From Pseudomonadaceae bacterium (GTDB lineage Bacteria; Pseudomonadota; Gammaproteobacteria; Pseudomonadales; Pseudomonadaceae), in contig JAIERD010000234.1 of NCBI GenBank assembly GCA_019747155.1, positions 1-35,302 on the forward strand: a stretch of 35,302 bases of DNA, given 5' to 3'. Positions 21,697 through 23,842 of this stretch are shown here, piece by piece. The notes beneath the pieces are model-generated. The model was given only the letters and a program-made list of their open reading frames with translations. It was not told the origin of the DNA and ran no database searches. Position numbers and translations under genes: made by a program. Position 1 is the first letter of the stretch, and each line of letters opens with the position of its first letter.

Positions 21697-22501
21697 CGGA
21701 CGGCTCGGCAGTGACTTCCACGGCAGCACTTAAATCCAGCGACAAATCTGCCGCAGGGGGATTGCTGAGTTGCTCGCGCTGCTGCTCAAACAATTGCTTA
21801 AGCGCCAGCTCCAAGCGGGTTTCGACGCTGGCATCAATTTGGCTGTGCTCGGTTTCAACCCGGCAGCCGCCGGCCAATAGCTGCTGATCTTCGAGAATCC
21901 GCCAGCTTTCTTCATGGCGCTCGCGCAGGGCTTTAACCAGCTCGAAATCCTGCGGATTGATATGAATACGCAGGTTGCCGGCGCCCATCGGCAGCAATTT
22001 GAGGGCCTCGCTTAACACCTGGGCAAGCTGGCTGGAGTTGCACAACAACTCGCGGCGCACCACTTGTCGGCAAACGTGGTTCACCAACTTCACCAGCGCT
22101 TGTTCAATTTGCTGATCTTGCTCGGCAATTGGCGCCAACAATTGGCCCATCAACAGCTCAAGACGGGCAAGCTTGGCTTGCAAAGCGACATCGGCCTCTT
22201 GCTTGGCCTTTAATTGCCCGGCATGGAAACCGTCTTTCTCACCAACGGCAAACCCTTCGTTGTAAGCGTCCTGGCGAATCGCTTCGAGTTCATCGAGCGT
22301 CAAAGGTTTGACCGACTCCAGAGCAACCTCTTCGCCCTGCGCAGTGCTTGCCTCAGGCGCGGTTGGCTGGCTAGTCTCCGGCGTCTCCGGCAGATAAGTC
22401 GGCGCAGACGCGTCCGCCTCAAAGCTGGGCAAACTCCAGCGATCAAAGCTGCTGACATCTTTGGCGCGAATCAATTCGCTGGGAACTTCCTTAGCCGCCA
22501 T
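21686..22501 (-). CDS. fliH: Flagellar assembly protein FliH
   Basis: [24 protein letters not shown]...[16 protein letters not shown]; upstream of fliI; SD GAGGAAG before the ATG. Confidence 0.94.
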
Positions 22502-22520
22502 CTGAGACTTCCTCGCTTAG

Positions 22521-22825
22521 GGAACCGCTGAAAAACTACTGCGCTCGGTTATGCTGCGTTGAAATCATCCTCACAGCCACAGGCTGAACGCGCTTTAGCG
22601 CGGCCCCGGAGGGGTGAGCGAAGCGAATCAAATGCTCATTTACAGCACGTAAACTGCGCTTTTGACTCACTACGTTCGCCCTACGGGTCAGCCGTTGGCT
22701 GTTACTCCGCTTCGCTACGTTGCGGCTGCTTTCGCCTTGTGACCCACATGGATGTGGGAAATGCAGCTAGCCCGCAGGAGCGGGCGTCGCACTAACCATC
22801 GCTCGCTACCTTTTTCAGAGGCTCC
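22521..22825. mobile_element. 305-bp non-autonomous MITE-like insertion between fliG and fliH
   Basis: Imperfect terminal inverted repeats GGAACCGCTGAAAAA / GGAGCCTCTGAAAAA (13 of 15 identical); flanked by TTAG direct repeats at 22517-22520 and 22826-22829; no credible CDS; several internal palindromes. Confidence 0.8.
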
Positions 22826-23842
22826 TTAGATCATTGCTTCGCCGCCAGCACCGCCGAGCATAATCTCGCCAGCGTCGGCCATGCGTCGGGCAATGGTGAG
22901 GACTTCTTTTTGCGCCGTTTCAACATCACTGACCCGCACCGGCCCGCGGGCTTCCAGGTCATCACGGAGCAACTCTGCGGCACGCTTGGACATATTTTTG
23001 AAGACTTTTTCTTTGATGCCTTCATCGGCGCCCTTCAGCGCGATCACCAGCACATCGGAGGACACCTCGCGCAGCAAGGCTTGAATGCCCTTGTCATCGA
23101 CATCGGCAAGGTTGTCGAAGACAAACATCAGGTCCTCGATCTGGGTGGACAGGTCTTCATCGACCTCGCGGATCGAGTCCATCAACTGGCCTTCGATGGT
23201 GCTGTCGAGGAAGTTCATGATGTCCGCCGCCCGCTTAACCCCGCCCATCGCGGCGCGGGTGTTGCTTGAACTGCCGGAGAATTGCTTCTCTAATATCTGG
23301 TTGAGTTCTTTCAGCGCCGCCGGCTGCACGGTATTCAGTGACGACACCCGCAGAACTATATCCAGGCGAACTTTATGGTCGAAATGGCCCAGCACCTCGC
23401 CAGCTTGGTCCGGGTCCAGATAGGCCACCACGATGGCCTGAATTTGTGGGTGTTCGAAGCGAATCACATCGGCGACCGCCCGCGGCTCCATCCACTTCAG
23501 GCTGTCCAGACCGCTGGTGCTGCCGCCGAGGAGGATGCGGTCAATGAGGTTGCCGGCTTTGTCTTCACCCAAGGCCTGGGTGAGCATTTTGCGAATATAG
23601 CCGTCAGCACCCACCCCGAGACTGGTTTGATCGCCAACCGTCTCGACAAACTCGCCCATCACCCCTTCAACCTGCTCGCGCTGCACATTACCCATGTGCG
23701 ACATAGCCACGCCAACCCGCTGCACTTCCTTGGGGCTCAAATGGCGCAGCACTTGCGCGGCATCGGTTTCGCCGAGCGAGAGCAGCAAAATAGCGGCTTT
23801 ATCAACCTTGCTCAGCTTGGCTGGGGTACGTGCGTCACTCAT
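22826..23842 (-). CDS. fliG: Flagellar motor switch protein FliG
   Basis: LSKVDKAAILLLSLGETDAAQVLRHLSPKEVQRVGVAMS; FEHPQIQAIVVAYLDPDQAGEVL; C-terminal MFVFDNLADVDDKGIQALLREV. Confidence 0.97.
   Translation of the reverse strand: MSDARTPAKLSKVDKAAILLLSLGETDAAQVLRHLSPKEVQRVGVAMSHMGNVQREQVEGVMGEFVETVGDQTSLGVGADGYIRKMLTQALGEDKAGNLIDRILLGGSTSGLDSLKWMEPRAVADVIRFEHPQIQAIVVAYLDPDQAGEVLGHFDHKVRLDIVLRVSSLNTVQPAALKELNQILEKQFSGSSSNTRAAMGGVKRAADIMNFLDSTIEGQLMDSIREVDEDLSTQIEDLMFVFDNLADVDDKGIQALLREVSSDVLVIALKGADEGIKEKVFKNMSKRAAELLRDDLEARGPVRVSDVETAQKEVLTIARRMADAGEIMLGGAGGEAMI

Follow-up and report, generated by a model that had tools for sequence, protein, structure and literature searches.

The miniature inverted-repeat transposable element (MITE) MITEPsy1 has been shown to transpose in Pseudomonas syringae pv. 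phaseolicola and is linked to ISPsy2, an insertion sequence (IS) of the IS5 family (PMC3189936). It is 100 nt long with 18-nt tips (GGAAGGTCTGAAAAAGCC and GTATCCTCTGAAAAAGCC), targets CTAG or YTAA, and its six copies lie two in genes, two in intergenic DNA and two in transposons (PMC3189936). IS5 itself targets YTAR (PMC10359306). One QMITE2 copy of Coxiella burnetii lies at the 3′ end of enhC (PMC5896051; reviewed in PMC10969869), and a review of prokaryotic MITEs gives preferences for intergenic DNA and 3′-untranslated regions and leaves stop codons unmentioned (PMC10969869). Here we describe a 305-bp element lying between the flagellar genes fliG and fliH on contig JAIERD010000234.1 of a Pseudomonadaceae bacterium (GCA_019747155.1), within a stretch of 35,302 nt hereafter called the window. 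MITEPsy1 is the closest described element; a literature search to which subscription papers were mostly closed found no description of the sequence or of the stop-codon bias reported below.

By type the element is an ordinary non-autonomous MITE, of the kind of MITEPsy1 and the IS5 group, and its position is tidy. Its terminal inverted repeats match at 13 of 15 positions, and the tip pattern, allowing up to two mismatches, occurs at these two places alone in the window, where shuffled windows gave an expectation of 0.36 matches and yielded two matches in 5 of 100 shuffles. A generic repeat finder did not report the element, whose tips are presumably too short and too imperfect for it. On the coding (minus) strand fliG ends in ATG ATC TAA and the duplicated site reads CTAA. 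The preliminary description had placed an element of this length, with inverted ends and TTAG on either side, on the fliG stop codon and had both reading frames intact; all of this could be re-read in the sequence, and protein profiles recognized FliG and FliH at full length, together with FliI, FliF and FliE. It had also called the operon essential, a term we do not retain, as it does not apply to flagellar genes in its usual meaning. We consider it very probable that an IS5-group transposase acting in trans brought the element onto the CTAA of the fliG stop. The element belongs to a family enriched at stop codons, most likely through a bias based on survival.

The site without the element can be seen in relatives. 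In most genomes of the same genus fliH begins 3 to 23 bp past a fliG stop that usually reads ATG ATC TAA, and most relatives show the same ATGATCTAA context with a single CTAA, which is the normally spaced operon that had been predicted on removal of the element. Since fliG of relatives usually ends in this way, the CTAA target predates the insertion. Unrelated spacers of about 50 to 220 bp are found at fliG-fliH in a minority of relatives (L114, L121, L125, L128, L129, and L137), and the junction therefore tolerates inserts. In the genome with the best fliG match (G001, L114:2509-2783) the same junction is occupied by an inverted-repeat element that is unrelated to the present one (ends CAGGGTCTATTCCCGTTTCG) and that inserted independently at this joint of the operon, and two other relatives (L121 and L137) have short hairpin-like inserts of 51 and 107 nt that look like repetitive extragenic palindromic (REP) sequences.

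The own genome is a 4.07-Mb draft of 621 contigs, 79% complete, and the catalog of copies is non-exhaustive, 40 candidates having been scored per genome. BLAST of the window element against it returned 56 pieces, the self match and 55 others, among them a 305-bp copy with 91% identity (C398, L002), and a 140-bp consensus found about 40 places. Pairing of tips gave about 30 copies of sub-type A (CAGGCCGYTGAAAAA tips), three of sub-type A′, the window type (GGARCCKCTGAAAAA tips), and 9 to 16 of sub-type B (CAGRCYGTGTGAAAA tips), the last number varying with the strictness of tip matching. Copy length varies between about 140 and about 310 bp and is mostly 140 bp; dozens of short copies share the interior of the window element and contain no gene. 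The window-element tips recur at C332 and C565, the former a 196-bp copy with a TTAA/TTAA duplication, and identical YTAR duplications on both sides were observed at 11 A or A′ copies of the own genome, with all four tetramers in use. The dispersed copies with shared, paired ends and the fit to an IS5-group YTAR target, both anticipated in the preliminary description, were thus found, and the two outcomes that it had named as contrary, a conserved spacer lacking other copies and a lack of empty sites, were looked for and not seen. Sub-type A′ is present in five other named pseudomonad-type genomes, including Pseudomonas sp. N040 and Halopseudomonas xinjiangensis, with TTAA/TTAA, TTAG/TTAG, and, in one copy, CTAT/CTAT duplications, the last not YTAR. 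Shorter family matches extend to further genera of the same order; a plasmid collection held a few matches, none beneath an annotated gene, and a phage collection held none.

The stop-codon position is a habit of the family, and this is the new point here. For each A or A′ insertion the empty site was rebuilt and we asked whether its YTAR overlapped a called gene's stop codon, using a home-made gene caller and 435 kb of the own genome as background. The insertions divided into 17 at a stop, 13 intergenic, and 2 within a called gene, compared with 126, 706, and 1563 background YTAR sites, respectively. Among non-disruptive sites, 17/30 insertions (57%) were at a stop versus 126/832 (15%) of the background (p = 1.9e-7), so that family members lie at stop codons at three to four times the chance frequency. 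In relatives the count was 7/14 (p = 0.002). A test that dispenses with the gene caller, scoring any TAR that closes an open frame of 150 codons or more, gave 16/32 versus a background of 9.7% (p = 8e-9), 15/31 when the window copy was left out, and 9/15 in relatives. The small number of copies within genes (2) shows that selection acts.

We propose that an IS5-group transposase would act in trans, recognize the GGARCCKCTGAAAAA tips, and cut a 4-bp YTAR target. The sequence shows that the element entered the CTAA that holds the fliG stop and duplicated it, so that FliG keeps its native TAA and FliH its own start and ribosome site. Since YTAR always includes TAR, stop codons would be ready-made targets, and insertions there would survive as the duplication remakes the stop and promoters stay untouched. 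The stop bias is thus likely to be caused by the presence of TAA or TAG in YTAR combined with selection. In the mobilization in trans first suggested, the non-autonomous and multi-copy nature of the element stood, whereas the transposase is still a proposed one, the advised check for an IS with matching terminal repeats having returned none in the incomplete draft or the relatives checked.

A second explanation, which we regard as possible but tentative, is that the transposase actively favors YTAR at gene ends, owing to GC-rich flanks, DNA structure, or the state of transcription or translation. The ratio of stop to convergent intergenic sites was 17:2 for insertions and 126:129 for background YTAR (Fisher p = 6e-4), and this excess over sites where insertion is presumably also harmless hints at something beyond selection; however, convergent regions contain terminators and may be non-neutral. 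Insertion sites have GC-rich flanks, and there, as at stop sites, A/T is avoided at the position two bases outside YTAR, but GC flanks account for part of the bias only, the GC-matched expectation being 5.4/30 at a stop versus 17 observed (p = 1.9e-6). That an insertional preference for stop codons, built from YTAR and a GC-rich or gene-end context, constitutes a "safe-harbor" strategy seems doubtful to us; if targeting rather than survival were the cause, bacteria would be seen to have a new safe-site strategy.

Several points weigh against insertion by an IS5-group transposase in trans with survival-based enrichment. Neither the own genome, which is incomplete, nor the relatives checked yielded an IS whose ends match, and a search for the A′ tip in 11 genomes gave no autonomous element, although such absence is weak evidence because short-read drafts lose multi-copy IS. 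In many family copies the duplication has decayed on one side, and no recent movement of the family was observed. The stop-codon statistic comes from a home-made gene caller, one main genome, and about 30 insertions that differ in age; the hypothesis itself arose after several of the same copies had been viewed.

Candidate partners were examined individually. The PF01609 match in the own genome is a mere fragment of an unrelated transposase with different ends, a PF13586 search of that genome found nothing, and the matches to the tip patterns were all MITEs, solo tips, or chance sites. The relative G008 has an IS5 transposase (NF033581, 358 bits) bounded by TTAGGGATGGTCTGAAAAAG (loci L083/L096), and the tips of the IS5 elements of G008 and G012 read GGGATGGTCTGAAAAAG and GGAAGGTCTGAAGTAG, respectively; as partners the IS5-type transposases of relatives were rejected, their ends being related yet different. 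In G041, of the same order, a decayed IS5-like element (L095/L264) has ends GGGAACCTCTGAACTTATC and GGGGACCTCTGAATTAATC, near the A′ tip, and judged by those ends it may represent a distant partner type.

The insertion lengthens the fliG-fliH message by a strongly folded 309-nt spacer; as RNA, the coding strand of the element is predicted to fold at −135 kcal/mol (z = −5.6). Since a pattern scan of the element predicted no promoter or intrinsic terminator, its effect on expression is expected to be modest. It has to be asked whether the spacer is instead a retained regulatory element (an attenuator, an mRNA-processing hairpin, or a 3′ stabilizer) that tunes the ratio of FliG to FliH, which we hold to be improbable: the very stable fold and the unrelated inserts at the same junction in several relatives would agree with it, but such folding is expected of any MITE, most relatives have no insert at all, neither promoter nor terminator pattern is present, and an Rfam search gave no match above threshold and a single sub-threshold one, taken as chance. 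That a full IS5-group IS once lay at fliG-fliH and decayed to the present element fits the IS5-group type of its tips but is very hard to credit, because the 140-bp core and its modules lie at many unrelated sites, each with its own YTAR duplications, and the short form itself has therefore multiplied.

The coordinates are collected in Table 1. The A-tipped copy L002 has the same modules as the window copy, and because of this the tips and interiors would appear to have been swapped between sub-types.

Table 1. Features of the fliG-fliH junction, with window coordinates
Feature	Coordinates	Strand	Basis or remark
fliH, intact, 271 aa	21686..22501	-	NF004269; start at 22501, Shine-Dalgarno-like GAGGA undisturbed upstream
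Target-site duplication, left copy TTAG	22517..22520	.	Direct reading of sequence
Left terminal inverted repeat GGAACCGCTGAAAAA	22521..22535	+	Direct reading; same tips on other copies
Non-autonomous element, 305 bp, A′ sub-type, modular	22521..22825	.	
Internal module 1, 56 nt	22574..22629	.	Alignment: not in 140-bp core element L260 (A′), in L004 and L002
Internal modules 2-3	22664..22791	.	Alignment: not in 140-bp copies; first part common with L259, entire stretch with L002
Right terminal inverted repeat GGAGCCTCTGAAAAA	22811..22825	-	Direct reading (inverse on forward strand)
Target-site duplication, right copy TTAG (coding strand CTAA)	22826..22829	.	fliG stop TAA = 22826-22828
fliG, intact, 338 aa	22826..23842	-	TIGR00207 and three Pfam FliG domains

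Further variation was noted among the copies. Five A copies (L148, L161, L179, L193, and L296) are flanked by YTAR at one end but by CCAA/TTGG at the opposite end. Another interior variant (CTACCTGCGTTGCCGATACGGCGTT) occurs within the same CAGGCCG tips at L245:744-883, L251, and L234, so that these tips serve several interiors. Sub-type B copies at L177, L168, and L022 (own C598, C321, and C482) and at L229:16781 lie inside terminator-like hairpins, with mutually complementary flanks (for example AAAAAGGCCCG and CGGGTCTTTTT) and without YTAR duplications; averaged over all B copies this complementarity is a modest effect, though clear in several.

The counts show how a short target that contains a stop lets a transposon spread through a compact genome, and even into the joints of an operon, with the proteins unharmed. 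The family is a modular one in which tips and interiors appear to have been exchanged, and its fliG-fliH insertion, a clean event in a flagellar operon, can be mapped onto the species tree.

Set against known systems, the window element and MITEPsy1 both lack coding sequence, both occur in pseudomonads, and have in common the tip type ending in CTCTGAAAAA (GTATCCTCTGAAAAAGCC in MITEPsy1, GGAGCCTCTGAAAAA here). Both make a 4-bp duplication, CTAG or YTAA for MITEPsy1 and YTAR for the present family. The element is not MITEPsy1 itself, since length and outer tip bases differ: MITEPsy1 has 100 nt versus 140-305 nt here, interiors and outermost bases are distinct, and its six copies compare with tens here, which favor stop codons. 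QMITE2 is unrelated in sequence, and the accessible parts of its sources do not describe the duplicated target as being the stop codon itself (PMC5896051; PMC10969869). IS5-family IS such as that of G008 (NF033581) resemble the window family in their 4-bp targets of YTAR/CTAG type, and the G008 tip GGGATGGTCTGAAAAAG has its TCTGAAAAA part in common with the window element; they differ in having a transposase gene, and the exact window-element tips were found on none of them.
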